From assembly GCF_024298905.1 (NCBI RefSeq), contig NZ_CP101154.1, forward strand, positions 1,116,001 through 1,180,000: 64,000 nucleotides of DNA, in the 5' to 3' direction. Source of the DNA: Natronomonas marina (GTDB lineage: Archaea; Halobacteriota; Halobacteria; Halobacteriales; Haloarculaceae). This document shows, in pieces, positions 22,262-38,383 of this stretch. How positions within the stretch are numbered: the stretch's first letter is position 1; each line of letters begins with the position of its first letter. The position numbers and the translations under genes are program-made. The notes beneath the pieces are model-generated. The model made no database searches and was not told the DNA's origin. It was given only the letters and a program-made list of their open reading frames with translations.

Positions 22262-23755
22262 TCAGCCAACCGACTCGCCGCTCCGCCAGTGGTCGATAAC
22301 GTCCCTGAGGAGAGCGGTGTCGGTCGTCCCCGTCCGCCAGTCGTCGACGGCCGTCCGCAGCCCCTCGGAGTCGACGACGCCGTCGCCGTCGGTGTAGTCG
22401 GCGACGGTTTCGCCGGCCGTCTCCCCCGGCGGGGTCGACAGCGGGTCGGCGCAGGTGACGTTGCCGACGCAGTCGTCGGCTTCGGGACCGCCCGCCTCTC
22501 CCCACCAGTTGCCCGTCGCGTTGCCTTCGATGCGGGCGTCGGTGGCGTTGATCGCCGGTCGCTCGGTGTCGGTCAGCGTGCTGTTGTCGACTCGCCAGGC
22601 GCCGGTCGTGGCGTTGGCGAAGACGCCGACACCCTCGGAGGGGAGTTCGCCGGTCGTCTGCGTCCGGATGTCCCGAATCGTCGCGTTCCGCACCGCCCAG
22701 TCGCCGCCGGCGCGTTCGGCGAAGACGCCGACGCCGGTCCGGTTCCGTATCGTCGTTCCGGTAATCGTCCAGTCGCCGGTCGAGGCGAACGCGGTCACGG
22801 CGAAGAACTGGCCGGGGCCGAACGTCGAGTTCGCCACCGTCCAGTTGCCGGTCGTCGACGTCGCCGAGACGGCGCCCTCGTCGTTGTCCTCGAAGGTGGC
22901 GTTCTCGATTCGCCAGTCGCCGCCCGACTCGAAGGCGAACACGCCGGCGTCGCCGCCGTCCCGGACCGTCGTGTCGAGGACGCGCCACGCGCCGGAGGTG
23001 TTCTCCGCGTGTATCCCGGGACCGAGGTTGCCCGTGATTCGGCTCCCCTGGACCGTCCAGTCGCCCCGGGAGTTCGACGCGCTCACGCCCGGCGCGTCCG
23101 TCTCAACGGTGACATCGCTGACCGTCCAGTTCCCCGCCGAATCCTCGGCGAAGACGCCGTTGGAGTTGGCCTCCCGGATCTCGCTGCCCCGAATCCGCCA
23201 GTCGCCGGTCGTCTCGTAGGCGTCGAAGCCGTGTTTGCCGCCGACGGTGGTGACGTTGCGGGCCCGCCAGTCGCCGGCCGCCCCCGACGCGAACACGCCC
23301 GCGTGCCCCAGGTCACTGATGTGGAGGTCCGCTATCACCCACGCCGCGTCCCCCTGGGCGCCGCCGATGCCGATGTTGTACCCGACGATGGTGAACCCGC
23401 GAATCGTCGGCGCGGCGTCGCTGCTGACGGAGAACTGGAAGGCCGCCTTGTACGGGTTCGCCGTCGCCCCGTCCATCGTCGCGCCGTCCGGGGCGACGAT
23501 GGTCACGTTCCTGTCGACGACGACCGTCCCGCCGTACGTCCCCGGCCGCACCTCGACGGTGTCGCCGTCGCTGGCGTCATCGACGGCGTCCTGAATCGAG
23601 GCGTACTCGGCGTCGCCGTCGTCGTCGACGACGAGGGTCTCGTTGCCGGTCTCCGCCGCTGCGCCGGACCCGACGCCGACCGCGAGGACGCCACAGACGA
23701 AAACCAGAACCACGATTCCGATACCCGCCGAACCCACCGCCCCCTGCCGAACCAT
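22262..23755 (-). CDS. secreted right-handed parallel beta-helix protein with dockerin-like tail
   Basis: 497 residues. A Sec-type signal peptide (hydrophobic 10-32, ending GSGAAAET) is followed by DDDGDAEYASIQDAVDDAS and VEVRPGTYGGTVVV. These typify NosD/pectate-lyase-like beta-helix proteins. A long series of repeats of about 25 residues follows, with recurring GDWRI/GNWTV strands (about 150-420). The last 40 residues (DGDGVVDSEGLRTAVDDW then LLRDVIDHWRSGE) resemble a calcium-binding dockerin half and are shared with the protein at 28565. Probably surface-located; function unknown. Confidence 0.85.
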   Translation of the reverse strand: MVRQGAVGSAGIGIVVLVFVCGVLAVGVGSGAAAETGNETLVVDDDGDAEYASIQDAVDDASDGDTVEVRPGTYGGTVVVDRNVTIVAPDGATMDGATANPYKAAFQFSVSSDAAPTIRGFTIVGYNIGIGGAQGDAAWVIADLHISDLGHAGVFASGAAGDWRARNVTTVGGKHGFDAYETTGDWRIRGSEIREANSNGVFAEDSAGNWTVSDVTVETDAPGVSASNSRGDWTVQGSRITGNLGPGIHAENTSGAWRVLDTTVRDGGDAGVFAFESGGDWRIENATFEDNDEGAVSATSTTGNWTVANSTFGPGQFFAVTAFASTGDWTITGTTIRNRTGVGVFAERAGGDWAVRNATIRDIRTQTTGELPSEGVGVFANATTGAWRVDNSTLTDTERPAINATDARIEGNATGNWWGEAGGPEADDCVGNVTCADPLSTPPGETAGETVADYTDGDGVVDSEGLRTAVDDWRTGTTDTALLRDVIDHWRSGESVG

Positions 23756-27434: not shown

Positions 27435-28514
27435 ATGAGTCAGCCGACGCCCGACGGCTACGAACAGGGGCGGGGAATGGACGCCCACAACGAGGTGATG
27501 CGCGAGGTCCGGAGTCGCAACGACCGGACCTACGACCCGACCGAACCGACCCGCGTGTGGCTCGACGAGGACAACACCCCCGACGGCGTCCACGACTCGC
27601 TGACTATCATCCTCAACACCGGCGGCTGCCGGTGGGCGCGGGCCGGCGGCTGTACGATGTGCGGCTACGTCGCCGAGAGCGTCGACGGCGGCACCGTCGC
27701 CCACGAGGACCTGATGACCCAGATCGAGGCCTGCCTCGAACACGAGCGGGAGAACCTCGATGACAAAACGGCGGGGCTGGTCAAGATTTACACCTCGGGG
27801 TCGTTCCTCGACGAGCGGGAGATTCCGGCCGAGACGCGGGCGGCCATCGCCGAGACCTTCGCCGACCGTGACCGGATGGTCGTCGAGTCGCTGCCGGACT
27901 TCGTCGACCGCGAGAAGATTCGAGACTTCACCGACCGGGGCATCGAGACCGACGTCGCCGTCGGTCTCGAGACGGCGACCGACCGGGTGCGGCACGACGC
28001 CGTCAACAAGTACTTCGATTTCGAGGAGTTCGAGGCGGCCTGTACCGAGGCGCGGGCGGCGGGAGCGGGCGTCAAGGCCTACCTCCTGATGAAGCCGCCG
28101 TTCCTGGCGGAACCGGACGCCGTCGCGGACATGAAGCGGTCGGTGCGGCGGTGTGCCGGCGTCGACGGCTGTCACACCGTCTCGATGAACCCCTGCAACG
28201 TCCAGCGACACACGATGGTCGAGGAACTGTACCACGACGGCGGCTACCGGCCGCCGTGGCTGTGGTCGGTCTGCGAGGTACTGGAGGCCACGGCGGACGT
28301 CGACGCCATCGTCGTCTCGGACCCGGTCGGTCACGGCTCCGACCGCGGCCCCCACAACTGCGGCGACTGCGACGACCGCGTCCAGACCGCCATCAAGGAC
28401 TTCGATCTCCGGCAGGACCCCTCCGTGTTTGGGGAAGTGTCCTGCGAGTGCGAGGCCACCTGGGAGTACGTCATGGCCGAGGAGACGGCGTACAACCAGC
28501 CGCTCGTGGAGTAG
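27435..28514 (+). CDS. raSEA: archaeosine synthase radical-SAM subunit RaSEA
   Basis: 359 residues. Works after ArcS (17176) has added lysine to preQ0 in tRNA, cleaving the adduct to leave archaeosine. The radical-SAM cluster motif has the long spacing CRWARAGGCTMC (about 69-80) typical of this family. Conserved downstream parts are IYTSGSFLDEREIP, VGLETATDRVRH, YLLMKPPFL and VSMNPCNVQRHT, plus a Cys-rich end (HNCGDCDDR ... CECEAT). The last 149 bases or so have a decayed copy at 32692-32840, past the protease gene. Confidence 0.95.
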   Translation: MSQPTPDGYEQGRGMDAHNEVMREVRSRNDRTYDPTEPTRVWLDEDNTPDGVHDSLTIILNTGGCRWARAGGCTMCGYVAESVDGGTVAHEDLMTQIEACLEHERENLDDKTAGLVKIYTSGSFLDEREIPAETRAAIAETFADRDRMVVESLPDFVDREKIRDFTDRGIETDVAVGLETATDRVRHDAVNKYFDFEEFEAACTEARAAGAGVKAYLLMKPPFLAEPDAVADMKRSVRRCAGVDGCHTVSMNPCNVQRHTMVEELYHDGGYRPPWLWSVCEVLEATADVDAIVVSDPVGHGSDRGPHNCGDCDDRVQTAIKDFDLRQDPSVFGEVSCECEATWEYVMAEETAYNQPLVE

Positions 28515-28564
28515 GACACACGGCGACTCGGCGGCCGGTATCCGGGGGCTCGCGTGGAGGCGCC

Positions 28565-31500
28565 TTACTCGACGGGCTCGCCGCTCCGCCAGTAGTCGAC
28601 CACGTCCCGGAGCAACGGCGTGTCGAGGGCACCGGCCCGCCAGTCGTCGACCGCATCGCGCAGGCCGTCGGTCCCGACGACGCCGGTTTCGTTCGCGTAG
28701 TCGGTCAACCCGGGTGCGTCGCCGGCCATCGGTCCGACGACCGCCGGCGGCTGGACGTTCGCTGCCACGTATCGGTCGGTCGTGTCGACCGTCGAGTTCG
28801 CTATCGGGTTCCACTCGTTTTGCTCATCGTCGAGGCGCCACAGCCGCAGGTCCGCTTCGTCCGCCGCGGGGACGGCCCCCTCCTGGTAGGACACTCGCAG
28901 ATCGATCCACGCGTCGGATTCGTCGCTCCAGACCGGGACGTCCACGGCGACGTAGGAGCCGGTTCTCACGACCTCGTCGTCCGGCGACACCGCCGGCGTG
29001 ACCGCGTTGAGCGTGAACTCCTCGCCGGTGAACGAAACGGTCCCCGTCTCGAGGCGGACGGATCGTCCCCGCACGCAGGTCGTGTTCTCGACGTGCACGT
29101 CGTCACCCGCGGTGGTCTCGATGGCGGTGCCTTCGAGCGTCACGTTCGTGGCATCGACGAGGCTCACGGCCGTCCCGTCGAGGTCTCGCAGGTGATTGTC
29201 GACGAACCTGAGGTCCGTCGCACCCCACCCACGGATACCGTCTCCCCCGTCTTCGATGACGTTCCGTTCGACGGTCACGCTGCGTCCCTCGATCTGGATG
29301 CCTGGGTCCGCGCCGGCGATCGTGTTGTTGCGGAGCGTCACGTTCTCGCCGAACCCGCTGACGCCCTGGGAGACGTTGGTCATCGTGTTCCCGGCGACGG
29401 TCTGGTTCGGCGCGATGATCTGGACGCCGAACGTCGAATCCCGGACGGTATTGCCCTCGACCCGCCCGTCCGTCGTGCCGTCGCCGCCGATGCTCACGGC
29501 CTGCTCGACGGCGACGAACTCGTTGTCGCGGACGAGGAAGCCGGCCGACTGGTGGTTGATCTCGACTGCGGTATCGTCGACGTCCTTCAGTACGTTCGCC
29601 GCGACGGTCAGGTTCGCACTGTCGCTGACCACGATGGCCGAAGCCGAGTTCGGCGGTGACGAGATCGCGTTCCCGGCGAGGCGGACGTCGTCGGCGTTGA
29701 CGGTAACGGACGTACCCTCGGTCAGCGTGTCGTTCTCGATGGCGACTCCGTCGCCCCTGACCCAGACGAACGTGTTGTGGATCGTCCCGTCGCGGATCGT
29801 GCCGTCGTAGACCTCGATCCAGCTGTCGACGACGGTCGTCGTCTCGACGACCGCCTCCGACCCGTCGACGTAAAGCCCCCACGAACTCGTGTTTCGAACC
29901 GTGCTGTTCTCGATGCGCGGCGAGGCGCGTGCGATGATGCCCGCAGAGCCGTTGGCGACGTAGACGTCGGTAACCGAGAGCGCCGTGACATCGCTTGCGG
30001 CCAGGCCGCGCTCGTTGTTCTCCAGCGTCGCGTTCCGGACGCGTACCTCGTCGGCGGCGTCGCCGATCACGCCGTACCGGAAGCCGGCGACGCCGACGTC
30101 GGCGACCGTGAGGTCGCTCGAGTCGCCGACGTCGATCCCCCGCCCGCTTCGCTCGCCGGTGGGGCCCTGCAGCGTGAGGTTCTCGACGGTCACGTTCGAG
30201 CCGGCGACGTCGAGACCGGCGTCGGTGGTGAAGACGTCCTCGCCCCACAGTTTGATCGTGTGCCCGTTGCCGTCCAGTACCACGTCGTCGCTCTCGATCG
30301 AGAGACACGTGGCCTCCGCCGACGCGAGGTCGGCCACCAGGTCGTAACTGCCGCCGTGGTCGACCGTCCCGCACGCCTCGACCGTCGCGGGGACGGGAGC
30401 GACGAGGGTTCGTGACTCCGCCTCGGCACCGAGGGTGTCTATCCGGTCGGTCGCGACGACCTCGCCCTCGTACGCGACGGACACGTCGTAGAACTCGTCG
30501 GCGTCGTAGGATCCGTCGTCGTGTTCGAGTTGCTCCTGGAGTTCGAACGTGACGTTCCCGTCGCCGTTCGTCGTCCCCTCCCGGACGACGTCGCCGCCCT
30601 GTGATCTGACGGTGACGTTCGCCCCCTCGAGGGGGACCTCGCCGTCCTCGTGGTACACCTGGTACTCGACCGGCGTCAGCGACGGCGCGGTCAGGGTCCG
30701 CGAGGCGTTCTCGCCGGGAGCGAGGTCGGCGAGGACGGTCCCGACGAACATGCCCTGGCTGTAGACCTCCACGACCGTGTGTCCGGTGTCGAGACGCCCG
30801 AACTCGTACGGCAGGTCGATCCCATCCTCTGCGGTGACCTCCTCGACGACCTCGCCGTCCTGGTAGGCGAGCAGCGCCCCGACGTCGCTGGCGTCGGTTC
30901 CGTCCTCGTGTTCGACGTCGACCTCCAGCGACGGTGCCTCGACGACGGTGAGCGTCTCGACGTCGCTTTCGTCGTTCCGCGGGTAGATGCTGAACTCGTC
31001 GACGCCGGTCGCGATACGGAGACAGGTGGCGTACTCCCCGGGCTCGGTACCCTCCGGGAGGGTCGTCGAGACGGAGACGTCGGTCGCCACGAACGGGTCC
31101 GGGGCGGACACCGTCTCGGTGTGGATCGGATCCTCGAGGGGGATCAGATTGCCACAGGAATCGGTGTAGGACGCCCCGGCGTCGCGGACGTACACCTCCA
31201 CCGAGATCTCGTCGGGGCCGGCCGCCGTGCCCACGTTCCGTATCGTGTGTTCGAACGTCACGTTGGTCAGTCCGCCGGTGACGTTCTCGGCCGGGGTGAC
31301 GTCGTACCACGCTCGCTCCTCGCCGGTGAACGTGACGTTCTCGAAGACGTATTCGGGCCTGTCCGCGGGCGGGTTCTCCGAACCGTTCTGGATCCACGAC
31401 TCGAGGTCGTCGTCCTTCCGCTCGGTTATCCGGGGGCCGGCCGGCTCGGGCGCGAGCCAGCCGTCTTTCTTGGGGCCGACCGTCCCCACGCCCACGAGTT

Positions 31501-32437
31501 CGTACGTCCCGGTCGACGCGTCGTAATTCAGGAACGGCCCGCCACTCTGGCCCTGTGAGAACTCGATGTTCGCCTGCATGGTCGCCTCGTCCCCGTCGTA
31601 GTGGCCCTGTCCGGGGCCCCTGTCGGTCCACAGCGTCGGGAACAGCGGTTCGCCGGGCGGGGTCGCCGGGTAGCCCTGGGCCGTGATGTTGTTTCCACTG
31701 CGGTAGACGGCAGCGTCGGACGGGTAGGACTGCCAGTCGACCGTCCCGGTGTGGTTCCCGATGGGGCGGTCGAGCGCCAGCAGCGCGAAGTCGTTTCGGA
31801 CCTCGTCCGTCGGTCCGTTGCTCGCGATGTACTCCTCGTACGTCCAGACCCACCGGGCCCGTGCTCGCGAGAAGGGTTCGACGACCGTTCCCGACCGGTT
31901 GTCGGCGGCCGGCCGAACCCGTACCTCTTCCGCCCACGCCTCGGTCGAATGGTTGTACACGCAATGGGCGGCGGTCAGCACATGCGTCTCGTCGACGAGC
32001 GTGCCCGAACACCACTCGGAACCGTCGGCGTAGACCGAATACACGTTGACCGTCGCCCGGTCGTCCAGGAGGCCGGCGTCCCAGGGTCGTTCGATCCGCT
32101 CGCGGTCGTCCGTTCCGGCGGCGTCGAGGTCCCGCGGCGGCATCGAGTTACCGAGCAGCTCGAACTCGTGTCGGACCGGCGTGATTCCGCTGTCGGTCGA
32201 CTCGGTCGTCGCCCCCGTCGCGTTGTCGCCGGTTTCGTCCGCCAGAGCGGGGGCAGAGGCGGGCGTAACGCCGACGGCCTGGCGAGCGTCCCCCGGCGCC
32301 GAGGCGGCGGCGACGGCGGGTGCCCCGCCGACCAACACGACCACGAGCGCGACGCCGACCGCGAGAGCGACGGCCGTACGGTGCGGTCGCGGCAACCCGT
32401 CCCGTCGCTCCGCCCGCGGCTGGTCGTCGCCGGTCAT
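28565..32437 (-). CDS. secreted trypsin-like serine protease fused to a beta-helix domain and dockerin-like tail
   Basis: About 1290 residues from the ATG at 32437. A GTG at 32491, closer to the TATA box, adds 18. A signal segment (about 21-45) and Thr-rich linker lead to a V8/trypsin-like protease with a complete triad: His158 in THVLTAAHC, Asp216 in RNDFALLALD and Ser298 in SQGQSGGPFL. A CARDB-like region (about 375-500) and Ig/CNA-like repeats follow, then a right-handed beta-helix (about 690-1120) of many Ile/Val/Asn-Thr repeats. A tail (DGLRDAVDDW, LLRDVVDYWRSGE) matches the 22262 protein. The gene lies between RaSEA and a remnant of the RaSEA tail, so it was probably inserted. Confidence 0.85.
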   Translation of the reverse strand: MTGDDQPRAERRDGLPRPHRTAVALAVGVALVVVLVGGAPAVAAASAPGDARQAVGVTPASAPALADETGDNATGATTESTDSGITPVRHEFELLGNSMPPRDLDAAGTDDRERIERPWDAGLLDDRATVNVYSVYADGSEWCSGTLVDETHVLTAAHCVYNHSTEAWAEEVRVRPAADNRSGTVVEPFSRARARWVWTYEEYIASNGPTDEVRNDFALLALDRPIGNHTGTVDWQSYPSDAAVYRSGNNITAQGYPATPPGEPLFPTLWTDRGPGQGHYDGDEATMQANIEFSQGQSGGPFLNYDASTGTYELVGVGTVGPKKDGWLAPEPAGPRITERKDDDLESWIQNGSENPPADRPEYVFENVTFTGEERAWYDVTPAENVTGGLTNVTFEHTIRNVGTAAGPDEISVEVYVRDAGASYTDSCGNLIPLEDPIHTETVSAPDPFVATDVSVSTTLPEGTEPGEYATCLRIATGVDEFSIYPRNDESDVETLTVVEAPSLEVDVEHEDGTDASDVGALLAYQDGEVVEEVTAEDGIDLPYEFGRLDTGHTVVEVYSQGMFVGTVLADLAPGENASRTLTAPSLTPVEYQVYHEDGEVPLEGANVTVRSQGGDVVREGTTNGDGNVTFELQEQLEHDDGSYDADEFYDVSVAYEGEVVATDRIDTLGAEAESRTLVAPVPATVEACGTVDHGGSYDLVADLASAEATCLSIESDDVVLDGNGHTIKLWGEDVFTTDAGLDVAGSNVTVENLTLQGPTGERSGRGIDVGDSSDLTVADVGVAGFRYGVIGDAADEVRVRNATLENNERGLAASDVTALSVTDVYVANGSAGIIARASPRIENSTVRNTSSWGLYVDGSEAVVETTTVVDSWIEVYDGTIRDGTIHNTFVWVRGDGVAIENDTLTEGTSVTVNADDVRLAGNAISSPPNSASAIVVSDSANLTVAANVLKDVDDTAVEINHQSAGFLVRDNEFVAVEQAVSIGGDGTTDGRVEGNTVRDSTFGVQIIAPNQTVAGNTMTNVSQGVSGFGENVTLRNNTIAGADPGIQIEGRSVTVERNVIEDGGDGIRGWGATDLRFVDNHLRDLDGTAVSLVDATNVTLEGTAIETTAGDDVHVENTTCVRGRSVRLETGTVSFTGEEFTLNAVTPAVSPDDEVVRTGSYVAVDVPVWSDESDAWIDLRVSYQEGAVPAADEADLRLWRLDDEQNEWNPIANSTVDTTDRYVAANVQPPAVVGPMAGDAPGLTDYANETGVVGTDGLRDAVDDWRAGALDTPLLRDVVDYWRSGEPVE

Positions 32438-32831
32438 AGGCGAGGAGAGCCCGTCCGCCCCACGTCTCGCCGCGAACGTAGTCCGCTCCACTCGGCTTCG
32501 GTCGGTACCACTACTGTCGGAGATATATCGTCTGAGAGACCCCTCACGTTCAGCGTTCCCTGCTGACTCGGGATACCGTACAGGGTCGTAACAAGCTTCT
32601 GGAAGATTTCGAAACGTATCCGTTGATAATTGGCGCGAAATGGAATGTCAGAGTACGTATATCTGAGTCCTCTCGGGTGAGCGTCCGTCGGACACGGCTC
32701 GACCGGGACCCTACGACTGCCGCGACCGCGACGACCGCGTCCGGACCGTCATCAAGGACTTCGACCTCCGGCAAGACCCCTCCGTCTTCGCGGAAGTGTC
32801 GTGTGGGTGGGAAACCTCCCGGGAATACGTC
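32438..32831. other. intergenic region holding the protease promoter and the RaSEA remnant
   Basis: 394 bases without an intact gene. It contains the protease promoter, an AT-richer stretch (about 32590-32690) unlike the flanks, and from 32692 the decayed RaSEA tail. Nothing else recognisable. Confidence 0.6.
32521..32529 (-). promoter_or_regulatory. TATA box of the protease/beta-helix gene
   Basis: GATATATCT on the minus strand, the only strong TATA-like run upstream of the gene. It is 34 bases before the GTG at 32491 and 88 bases before the ATG at 32437. Confidence 0.5.
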
Positions 32832-32840
32832 TTACTCCGC
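32692..32840 (+). pseudogene. decayed duplicate of the RaSEA 3' end
   Basis: From 32722 the bases run parallel to 28363-28478, with about four in five identical by eye. In one frame this reads DDRVRTVIKDFDLRQDPSVF, against DDRVQTAIKDFDLRQDPSVF at the RaSEA C-terminus; the match continues through EVSC and EYV. The weaker left part (from 32692) aligns to 28332 onward with single-base deletions that break the frame. The conserved Cys codons are lost. It lies exactly 4359 bases from the real copy and abuts the convergent gene ending at 32832. Confidence 0.85.
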
Positions 32841-33308
32841 CGCGTCCCCTCCCGCACCGCTCCGATACCACAGGAACGCCCCGTAGGCCGACCCGACGAC
32901 CGTCGAGGCGATGAGCGCGAGCAGGACGGCGAAGGCGGCGTAGCCGACGACCGGGTTCGCGTACGGGACGACGACGTCCTGCGGCGGTTCGACCGCCCAC
33001 GGGCTGACGTGGAAGTACGCGAGCATGCCGGCGCTGAACGCGAAGAACCCGGCCCAGTACCGCGCCTCGACCCGTCTGGTCACCGTCAGGTAGAGGCTGA
33101 CCGCCAGGAGGGGGTAGATGGCGAGGCTGTACGTGAAGGCGTTCACCTCGGGGGTGAGCGGCCACCCGACGTGGTTGCCGCGGACGACGTGGTCGACGTG
33201 GTGGGCCGCTCCCAGCACCGTCGGGACGAGGACGAACAGGTAGAACAGTCGCGTCAGACTGGAGTCCGTCGTGGGCAGTTCGACCGGGAGGCTGTCTCCG
33301 AGCGCCAT
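32832..33308 (-). CDS. multi-pass membrane protein, function unknown
   Basis: 158 residues from the ATG at 33306-33308; the upstream ATG at 33371 adds 21 polar residues over the promoter region. About four hydrophobic segments, with a His pair motif AAHHVDHVVRGNHVGWP near residue 40 that could bind metal. Its stop lies within the end of the RaSEA remnant, suggesting that it was once the direct convergent neighbour of RaSEA. Confidence 0.72.
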   Translation of the reverse strand: MALGDSLPVELPTTDSSLTRLFYLFVLVPTVLGAAHHVDHVVRGNHVGWPLTPEVNAFTYSLAIYPLLAVSLYLTVTRRVEARYWAGFFAFSAGMLAYFHVSPWAVEPPQDVVVPYANPVVGYAAFAVLLALIASTVVGSAYGAFLWYRSGAGGDAAE

Positions 33309-33435
33309 ATCGGTCGGTCGGTGACCAGCGGGATGGGAGTTGTCCCAACATGTTGGTTCGACCGTCGCCACCCGGAACGACCCGGCCGGGTCGCCGACAT
33401 CGGTTCACCCCCGAGCGGTGGTTATCTCACCGACA

Positions 33436-33466: not shown

Positions 33467-33952
33467 ATGAAGCGGGTACTGGGGGCACTCGCGTTGATCG
33501 TCGTATCGCTCGCCGCGGCCGTGGCGCTGTGGCAACTGGTCATCGCCGCACCGAGCGCCGCGGCCGAGAACGCCGACACCCAGGTCGAGGGAACGGTCGT
33601 CGACACCGAGCTCGCCCGGGGAACGGCCGACTGCGGGGAGGCCCGCTCGACCACGTACAGCCCCTCGGTGACGTATCGCTACACGTACGAGGGGACGACC
33701 TACCGGAGCGAGAACCTGTATCCCGGCCCGAGCGAGGGCACCGCGTACTGCGACCGCTCGGAGGCCCAGGCCGTCGTCGACCGGTACCCGGAGGGCTCGA
33801 CCGTCACGGTACACATCGACGGCGACCGGCCGGACCGGTCGTTCCTCGAAACCGAGCCCATCGAGTGGAACGACTACGTCCCCGTGGCGTTCCCGCTGTT
33901 GTTCGCCCTGATGGGGTTGATCGGGCTGGTGAAGGAGCTAACGGGCGAGTGA
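33467..33952 (+). CDS. DUF3592-like membrane protein
   Basis: 161 residues. An N-terminal helix (about 5-27) is followed by an outside domain with VEGTVVDTELARG, two Cys separated by about 38 residues, and SVTYRYTYEGTTYRSENLYPG. The pattern of DUF3592 proteins continues with SEAQAVVDRYPEGSTVTVHI. A second helix lies near the C-terminus (about 138-155). Function unknown. Convergent with purQ, 10 bases away. Confidence 0.8.
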   Translation: MKRVLGALALIVVSLAAAVALWQLVIAAPSAAAENADTQVEGTVVDTELARGTADCGEARSTTYSPSVTYRYTYEGTTYRSENLYPGPSEGTAYCDRSEAQAVVDRYPEGSTVTVHIDGDRPDRSFLETEPIEWNDYVPVAFPLLFALMGLIGLVKELTGE

Positions 33953-33962
33953 CCGCCGGGAC

Positions 33963-34637
33963 TCACTCGAAGGCCCGCAGGACGCCCTGGCCGTCCGTCG
34001 GCCCGATGTCGGGCAGCGTCGCGCGCTCGGGATGGGGCATCAGGACGGCGACGTGGTCCTCGGTGCCCAGGACGCCGGCGACGTTGTCCTTCGAGCCGTT
34101 GGGGTTGGCCGCCTCGGTAATCTCGCCGTCGGGCTCGCAGTACCGAAAGAGGATTCGGTCGGTCTCGACCAGTCCCTGGAGACGCTCGTCGGCAATCTCG
34201 AAGCGGCCCTCGCCGTGGGCGATGGGCACCTCGACGACGTCGCCCTCCTCGTAGGCGGCCGTCCAGGGGGTGTCGGCGTTCTCGACGCGCAGGTGGACCG
34301 GCTCGCACTGGAAGCGGGCGCTCTCGTTGGTGGTGAAGGCGCCGGGGGTCAGCCCGCCCTCGCAGCCGATCTGGGCGCCGTTGCAGACGCCGAGGACGGG
34401 CGTGCCCTCGGCGGCGGCGGCGCGGACCTCGTCCATGATAGGCGCCCGTGCCGCCATCGCGCCCGCCCGGAGGTAGTCGCCGTACGAGAAGCCGCCGGGG
34501 ACGACGATGCCGTCGGTGTCCTCGGGGAGTCCGTCCTCGTGCCAGACGATTTCGGCGTCGACGCCGAGGTGCTCCAGGGCCCGGCGGGCGTCGCGGTCGC
34601 AGTTCGAGCCGCCGAACCGGATGACTGCGACGGTCAC
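33963..34637 (-). CDS. purQ: phosphoribosylformylglycinamidine synthase glutaminase subunit
   Basis: 224 residues from the GTG at 34635-34637; a GTG three codons further upstream is possible. PurQ supplies ammonia from glutamine to PurL in purine synthesis, joined by PurS. Class I amidotransferase triad: Cys in VLGVCNGAQIG (about 84), His and Glu in VLMPHPERATLP near the C-terminus. The start RFGGSNCDRD is typical. Follows purS on the same strand with a 62-base gap. Confidence 0.96.
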   Translation of the reverse strand: MTVAVIRFGGSNCDRDARRALEHLGVDAEIVWHEDGLPEDTDGIVVPGGFSYGDYLRAGAMAARAPIMDEVRAAAAEGTPVLGVCNGAQIGCEGGLTPGAFTTNESARFQCEPVHLRVENADTPWTAAYEEGDVVEVPIAHGEGRFEIADERLQGLVETDRILFRYCEPDGEITEAANPNGSKDNVAGVLGTEDHVAVLMPHPERATLPDIGPTDGQGVLRAFE

Positions 34638-34699
34638 AGTGACCACCGCCGTCGCGGGTGGGAACCGGGCGTCGCCGTCGTGTGTATCGCGACCGTCAT

Positions 34700-36781: not shown

Positions 36782-38383
36782 ATGACAGGCACCGCCGACT
36801 CCTCGACGGAACGACCGCTCGCGTTGACGCTGCTGAGCGGCGCGGTCGCGGCGGCGCTCGTCTTCCCGCTGACCTGGGTCGTCATGCGGGCGAGCACCGT
36901 CCCTCCCGATCGGGCGAGCGGCCTCCTGTTCAACGACAGGACCGTCGAGATATTCCTCAACAGTCTGCTGTTGATGGTGAGCGTGACGGTCCTTTCGGTC
37001 CTGCTCGCGGTGCCGCTGGCGGTGCTTACGGTCCGTACCGACCTGCCCGGTCGTCGGTTCTGGACTATCATCGTCTCGCTGCCGCTTGCCATTCCCAGCT
37101 ATCTGGGCGCCTTCGCGTTCGTCACGATGTTCCGGCCCCGGGGCATCGTCCAGGGGTGGCTCGAACCGCTCGGTGTACAGGAGTTGCCGGACGTCTACGG
37201 GCTGTCCTCGGCGGTCCTGATAATCACCCTCTACACGTATCCCTACGTCTTCATCACGACCCGGGCGGCGCTGAAGACCTTCGACAAGTCGCTCGTCGAC
37301 GCCGCCCGGACGCTGAACCACGGCTGGTTGTCGACGTTCCGGCGGGTGACGCTCCCGCAGATACGCCCCGCCATCGCCGCCGGCGCCCTGCTCGTGGCGC
37401 TGTACGCCGTCTCGGACTTCGGGACGCCGGCCTTCCTCCAGGCGGACGTGTTCACCCGCGAGATATTCCTCAAGCAGCAGTCCATCGGCGGCGACGACTT
37501 CGCCGCCTTCCTCTCGCTGCAGCTGGTCGCGCTGACCGTGTTCATCCTCGCGATCGAATCCCGCGTCCGCCGGACCGGCACCCTCTATACGGCCGGCGCC
37601 GGCGGGTCGACGACCGACATCGAACTCGGGCGCTGGAAGTGGCCCGCGGTCGGCTTCTGTGCCCTGCTCGGAACCGTCACGCTGGGGATGCCGATAGGCG
37701 TGTTCGTGTGGTTCCTCGTCACGAGCCAGACGAGCCCCTCCAGGGAGTTCGTCTTCCAGTGGGAGTGGCTGCTCAACTCCGCGACCGCCGGCGGGCTGGC
37801 CGCGCTGTTCGCGGCGCTGGCGGCGCTGCCCGTCGCGTACCTCTCGGCGCGGTACGACAGTCGTCTCGGGTCGCTGTTCGAGCGGACCACCTACGTCGGC
37901 TACGCCGTCCCCGGCATCGTCATCGGGCTCGCGCTCGTCTTCTTCGGCGCCAGATACGGCTCCATCGAGGTCGCGGGAATCGAGATCGGCGTCTACCAGA
38001 CGCTCCCCATCCTCGTGTTCGCCTACGTCGTCCGCTTCATGCCGCAGGCGGTCGGGTCGACCCGGACCTCCGTCCTGCAGGTGAACCCCCGGCTGAACGA
38101 GGCTGCCCGGACGCTCGGCGAGGGCCCGCTCTCGTCGTTCCGGCGGGTGACGCTGCCGCTCATCGCGCCCGGCATCGTCGCCGGCGCCGCGCTGGTCTTC
38201 CTCACGACGATGAAGGAACTGCCCGCGACGCTGCTTTTGCGGCCGATCGGCTTCGAGACGCTCGTGACCCGAATCTGGGCGGCCAGAGCGGCCGGCTACC
38301 AGAGCTACGTGGCGATCCCCGCGTTGCTGTTGCTCGTCATCTCCGGGCTGTCGATGGTCGTCATCCTGCGACAGGAAGAGTGA
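36782..38383 (+). CDS. iron(III)-type ABC transporter permease, two fused halves
   Basis: 533 residues with about 12 helices in two homologous halves. Each half carries an EAA loop for contact with the ATPase: DAARTLNHGWLSTFRRVTLP (about 178) and EAARTLGEGPLSSFRRVTLP (about 440). This duplicated form is typical of FbpB/SfuB-type ferric-iron permeases. Neither a substrate-binding protein nor an ATPase gene is adjacent, so partners must be encoded elsewhere. Two iron-box-like sites upstream suggest iron-dependent repression. Confidence 0.88.
   Translation: MTGTADSSTERPLALTLLSGAVAAALVFPLTWVVMRASTVPPDRASGLLFNDRTVEIFLNSLLLMVSVTVLSVLLAVPLAVLTVRTDLPGRRFWTIIVSLPLAIPSYLGAFAFVTMFRPRGIVQGWLEPLGVQELPDVYGLSSAVLIITLYTYPYVFITTRAALKTFDKSLVDAARTLNHGWLSTFRRVTLPQIRPAIAAGALLVALYAVSDFGTPAFLQADVFTREIFLKQQSIGGDDFAAFLSLQLVALTVFILAIESRVRRTGTLYTAGAGGSTTDIELGRWKWPAVGFCALLGTVTLGMPIGVFVWFLVTSQTSPSREFVFQWEWLLNSATAGGLAALFAALAALPVAYLSARYDSRLGSLFERTTYVGYAVPGIVIGLALVFFGARYGSIEVAGIEIGVYQTLPILVFAYVVRFMPQAVGSTRTSVLQVNPRLNEAARTLGEGPLSSFRRVTLPLIAPGIVAGAALVFLTTMKELPATLLLRPIGFETLVTRIWAARAAGYQSYVAIPALLLLVISGLSMVVILRQEE

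Follow-up and report, generated by a model that had tools for sequence, protein, structure and literature searches.

Why should the end of a housekeeping gene recur, in broken form, beyond the next gene downstream? The question is raised by a locus of Natronomonas marina within the 64,000-nucleotide stretch of DNA that we analysed (the window), where the tRNA-modification gene for RaSEA, an archaeosine biosynthesis radical SAM protein, stands intact at 27435..28514 on the forward strand and encodes a product of 359 aa with 91% identity to that of the nearest relative, G133 (residues 41-357 match TIGR01210 with 453 bits, the cut-off being 212). A whole-genome DNA search paired bases 28326-28472 (+), the repeated portion of the intact 3' end, with 32687-32831 at 84% identity and with one 2-nt gap (E 6.7e-37), a second search returned the same pair with E 1e-38, and the segments 28347-28472 and 32706-32831 align ungapped across 126 nt at 83% identity, in register and with a spacing of 4359. 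As a control for repeat strength, the whole window was cut into 147-nt pieces and each was compared against the window: the RaSEA-tail pieces scored 114 and 111 bits, against 75 for the next unrelated pair and 33 for the median best match, and the RaSEA-tail pair is the top non-self DNA match within the window. The recurrence of about 149 bases of the RaSEA end 4359 bases away, proposed in the initial annotation, is thus confirmed as a repeat, but the second copy occupies 32687-32831 and not 32692-32840. Internal DNA repeats of about 78-83% identity also occur at 37297-37395 and 38074-38196, inside the ORF at 36782-38383.

The second copy (32687..32831, + strand) is a fragment of 145 bases, 4.2 kb past intact RaSEA, that corresponds to codons ~298-346 and comprises neither the upstream part of RaSEA nor its last 13 codons and stop. 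Both of its edges are abrupt and lie inside RaSEA, and the right one, 32831, falls directly before the stop codon of the gene at 32832. It had been described as decayed and frameshifted, which holds, as it carries a 2-nt deletion and many non-synonymous changes. Change between the copies was polarised by alignment with twenty relatives at 139 sites, 25 of which differ: 21 changed in the remnant, 2 in the intact copy, and 2 are ambiguous. At 28406 and 28430, where the intact copy alone changed, the remnant holds the ancestral state. The remnant's private changes are spread 8/4/9 over codon positions 1/2/3, in contrast to intact genes, where most differences lie at position 3; such a spread is expected without selection, indicating that the remnant decayed free of constraint. 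By its homology, its lost frame and its lost codon-position bias, the remnant is a dead pseudogene fragment of RaSEA.

The surroundings of RaSEA were compared in 17 genus and close-kin genomes in which both RaSEA and purQ (33963..34646, - strand, in N. marina) were located. The two genes are convergent in all 17, separated by 10-96 bp in eight genomes, by 296-585 bp in two and by 1.2-4.9 kb in seven, the wide gaps being filled with unrelated genes such as those for a MatE-type transporter, ABC sugar transport and an AI-2E-type protein (named from translations). The MatE-type transporter in this gap is common to several Natronomonas. Across the wider haloarchaea, 58 of 80 named loci keep the convergent RaSEA-purQ order; the gap spans 10-5740 bp and exceeds 1 kb in 26 of them. 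In N. marina, 5.4 kb separate the two genes, and this interval is occupied by the protease/beta-helix gene, the remnant, the gene at 32832 (179 aa) and a gene for a DUF3592 protein; the three genes are absent at the RaSEA-purQ site in the 17 kin genomes, and the same arrangement was found in no other genome of the family. Nor was a second RaSEA tail found in 99 other RaSEA loci, in which the longest stray matches were 59 nt. The RaSEA gene of one relative (G124, L051 7252-8421) is lengthened by an apparent internal duplication of ~80 bases, with 32-nt repeats 81 nt apart.

The RaSEA-purQ interval is thus a site where genes turn over often, with conserved flanks and variable content. Since the three inserted genes are absent in kin and the kinship of purQ is unbroken, the 32832 gene is not a native neighbour of RaSEA, and the remnant is part of a larger turnover patch. 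A replacement extending into purQ was rejected, as the identity of purQ to kin runs without a break, up to and including its 3' end. These comparisons bear on several claims of the initial annotation. The protease/beta-helix gene is indeed the sole gene between the two copies, but the non-conserved block extends beyond the remnant, through 32832-33371 and 33467-33952, as far as purQ. The relatives show neither a tandem RaSEA nor a better match for the remnant, either of which would have counted against the annotation, whereas the idea that the native RaSEA end once met the 32832 gene fails, because RaSEA in kin faces purQ and the sole relative of the 32832 protein in the genus is encoded ~250 kb from RaSEA.

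The largest of the inserted genes (28565..32491, - strand) encodes a secreted-type protein of 1308 aa with a trypsin-like protease domain (Pfam Trypsin, 1.3e-15), beta-helix repeats (Beta_helix, 3.2e-25) and a C-terminal module, and at E 1e-40 it is absent in all other genus members. From its start to the remnant runs a stretch of low GC (32492..32686; ~53% against 69.6% for the window) that probably holds the promoter. The 179-aa protein of the second gene (32832..33371, - strand), whose stop codon abuts the remnant, matched no Pfam or NCBIfam family; profile and relatives searches mark the gene as accessory, with relatives in a further 18 genomes of the family, including the one within the genus (43% identity), which shares a contig with RaSEA. 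None of the loci fetched has RaSEA adjoining a relative of this gene, and a conserved RaSEA-32832 pair elsewhere was accordingly rejected. The third, likewise accessory, gene (33467..33952, + strand) encodes a DUF3592 protein (Pfam, 3.1e-14) that has no match at the corresponding site in kin and whose best relatives in the family are ~36-40% identical. The second and third genes were rejected as a travelling pair, since no DUF3592 relative lies beside the other 32832 relatives. A foreign composition of the inserted genes was rejected as well, their GC and GC3 being host-like. Transposase or integrase families were not matched in any of the three, and DNA self-comparison found no strong inverted repeats at the edges, on which grounds an insertion sequence or integrase-borne element was discarded.

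The C-terminal module of the protease/beta-helix protein is about 50 aa long and lies at 28568-28732 (-), at 22268-22405 (-) and at 11 more places in the genome. It reads approximately YADxSGVVDTDGLRxAVDDWRxGDIDTxLLRDVVDYWRTGEPV and ends 13 ORFs, mostly long and several clearly of secreted type. It was not found in 19 other Natronomonas genomes and matched no Pfam family, but it is present in the genus group g14 (Halovenus-like; one member matches Halovenus carboxidivorans) and in a few others. Structure prediction gives, with confidence, two main helices (mean pLDDT 88) with a dockerin-like outline, and the best match in a fold search was a dockerin, at a non-significant E of 2.4. Assignment to the Pfam dockerins was rejected, as there was no match and no cohesin or dockerin family in the genome. 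The nearest family relatives of the protease part (38-42%) also belong to g14, and the presence of both in this group suggests that tagged secreted genes have been exchanged. The module is a more interesting lead than the RaSEA remnant itself.

Where did the two RaSEA ends come from? Compared with G133 by segment, intact RaSEA is 86-94% identical upstream and 94-97% identical in the repeated part and the last codons, private changes are no denser in the tail than in the rest of the gene, and in AU tests the tail and the 5' part share an accepted region when placed on the tree of the others. By these three measures a foreign origin of the intact tail is rejected. On a tree of 134-139 usable sites, which does not separate an own-lineage from a slightly older origin, the remnant attaches at the node from which the present species, the group of G133 and all others diverge. 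Its closest sequences are those of the present genome (107/134 sites), G133 (107/134) and G125 (106), other genera reaching at most 101, so that an origin outside Natronomonas was rejected and the remnant, judged from these matches, is of Natronomonas type. The same can be said, from sequence comparison, of both RaSEA ends. Private change in the remnant amounts to ~15%, and four-fold sites differ by 23% (uncorrected) between the present species and G133; the former is close to the four-fold-site change of the lineage since the G133 split, so the remnant would, as a rough estimate, be about as old as the split of the species from its nearest sampled kin.

On balance, the remnant is probably a pseudogene scrap left when homology-assisted recombination at the RaSEA-purQ turnover site displaced a gene end. 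Incoming DNA that bore a RaSEA end and stemmed from this Natronomonas or one closely related to it would have paired with resident RaSEA on the homologous side, the other side being joined illegitimately near codon 298. RaSEA would thereby have stayed whole, the accessory protease gene would have come to lie directly downstream of it, and a second RaSEA end would have been stranded 4.2 kb away, where it decayed free of selection. The loss of the remnant's last 13 codons and stop, at the point where the 32832 gene now ends, would need a second event, either a deletion or the entry of the 32832 gene. The second copy, its decay, its Natronomonas-type origin, the lack of any sign of foreign descent in the intact tail and in purQ, and the absence of the insert in kin are observed, and we infer this mechanism, the order of its events and their direction; the crossover point on the homologous side is invisible because both copies come from one lineage, and the genomes searched yielded neither a donor nor an intermediate allele. 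Homology-assisted addition is the most economical account, the duplication, passenger and single-crossover readings weighed below being less economical or lacking support.

The initial annotation had read the locus as an insertion in which a foreign RaSEA end, borne by the incoming segment, replaced the resident end and left it as debris. What survives is that a rearrangement brought new genes to the 3' end of RaSEA and stranded a broken end; the assignment of foreign and native is not supported. Replacement by a foreign end would yield the observed order of parts, and the ancestral states at 28406 and 28430 are such as a native copy may have. However, the tail is no less similar to the nearest kin than the rest of the gene, its private changes are no denser, the AU test puts it at one point with the 5' part, and the remnant sits at that same node; the proposed phylogenetic check of the last ~150 bases thus found no differing descent. 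Only a donor of the same lineage would still fit, and with the remnant attached at the base of the lineage the tree allows either end to be the native one. We therefore regard this replacement as unlikely. It is also quite unlikely that the remnant came as a passenger of the 32832/DUF3592 block, cut out beside the RaSEA gene of another Natronomonas, with intact RaSEA never altered. The remnant immediately adjoins the 32832 gene and the tree permits a donor near the base of the lineage, yet a genome with RaSEA beside a relative of that gene was not found.

The remaining readings fare less well. The RaSEA end might have been duplicated in tandem within the genome, and the pair then parted when the protease gene inserted or cut down by a deletion. 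The single lineage of both copies would agree with this, but the 99 other loci hold no tandem or partial duplicate, and the fragment has neither the upstream part nor the stop of RaSEA, making such a history decidedly unlikely. If a circle of ~4.36 kb, with the protease gene and 147 bases of RaSEA on it, had integrated by single crossover, a direct repeat flanking exactly one gene would result, as is seen here; the right-hand copy should then retain the complete resident end and native downstream DNA, whereas it is short of the last 13 codons and stop, and the flanked gene matched no replication or integrase family, so that we hold this to be highly improbable. Retention of the second copy for a function, as an attachment site or a regulatory or antisense element, could draw on its position upstream of the protease gene, ~200 bases from the start of that gene, but since the copy has changes even over codon positions, carries a deletion, gives no hint of conservation and occurs in a single genome, this is extremely improbable.

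The homology-assisted addition favoured here resembles processes known from bacteria. Homology-facilitated illegitimate recombination, described in competent bacteria and in E. coli conjugation (PMC3240628), likewise anchors one side in a homologous gene, joins the other without homology and adds genes at the anchor; there it is bacterial, whereas here it would be inferred from an archaeal scar with no donor seen, and our literature search found no report of it in haloarchaea. In Vibrio, stranded and displaced 3' ends have been attributed to this process (PMC5361080), and the effector arrays and Rhs loci resemble our locus in that a conserved gene receives a new module at its 3' end, whereby its former end is left stranded downstream; those are polymorphic effector ends in a recurring process, while our locus is a single case, anchored in a housekeeping gene whose product is unchanged. 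Hotspots of horizontal gene transfer between conserved bacterial core genes (PMC5635113) similarly have two conserved neighbours with intervening genes that differ by species; the present locus differs in being archaeal and in that no mobile-element family was matched in the insert.

The remnant is thus a genuine recombination scar, if an ordinary one, in a variable interval, and its practical value is modest. One might speculate, as a doubtful extension, that haloarchaea repeatedly use the 3' end of RaSEA as a homologous anchor to gain or swap accessory genes, stranded ends being usually lost unseen and one having been caught here. The scar itself is one of archaeal gene gain that can be dated by its decay, and it illustrates that a housekeeping gene can acquire accessory neighbours and stay unbroken, while the displaced end can persist as debris.
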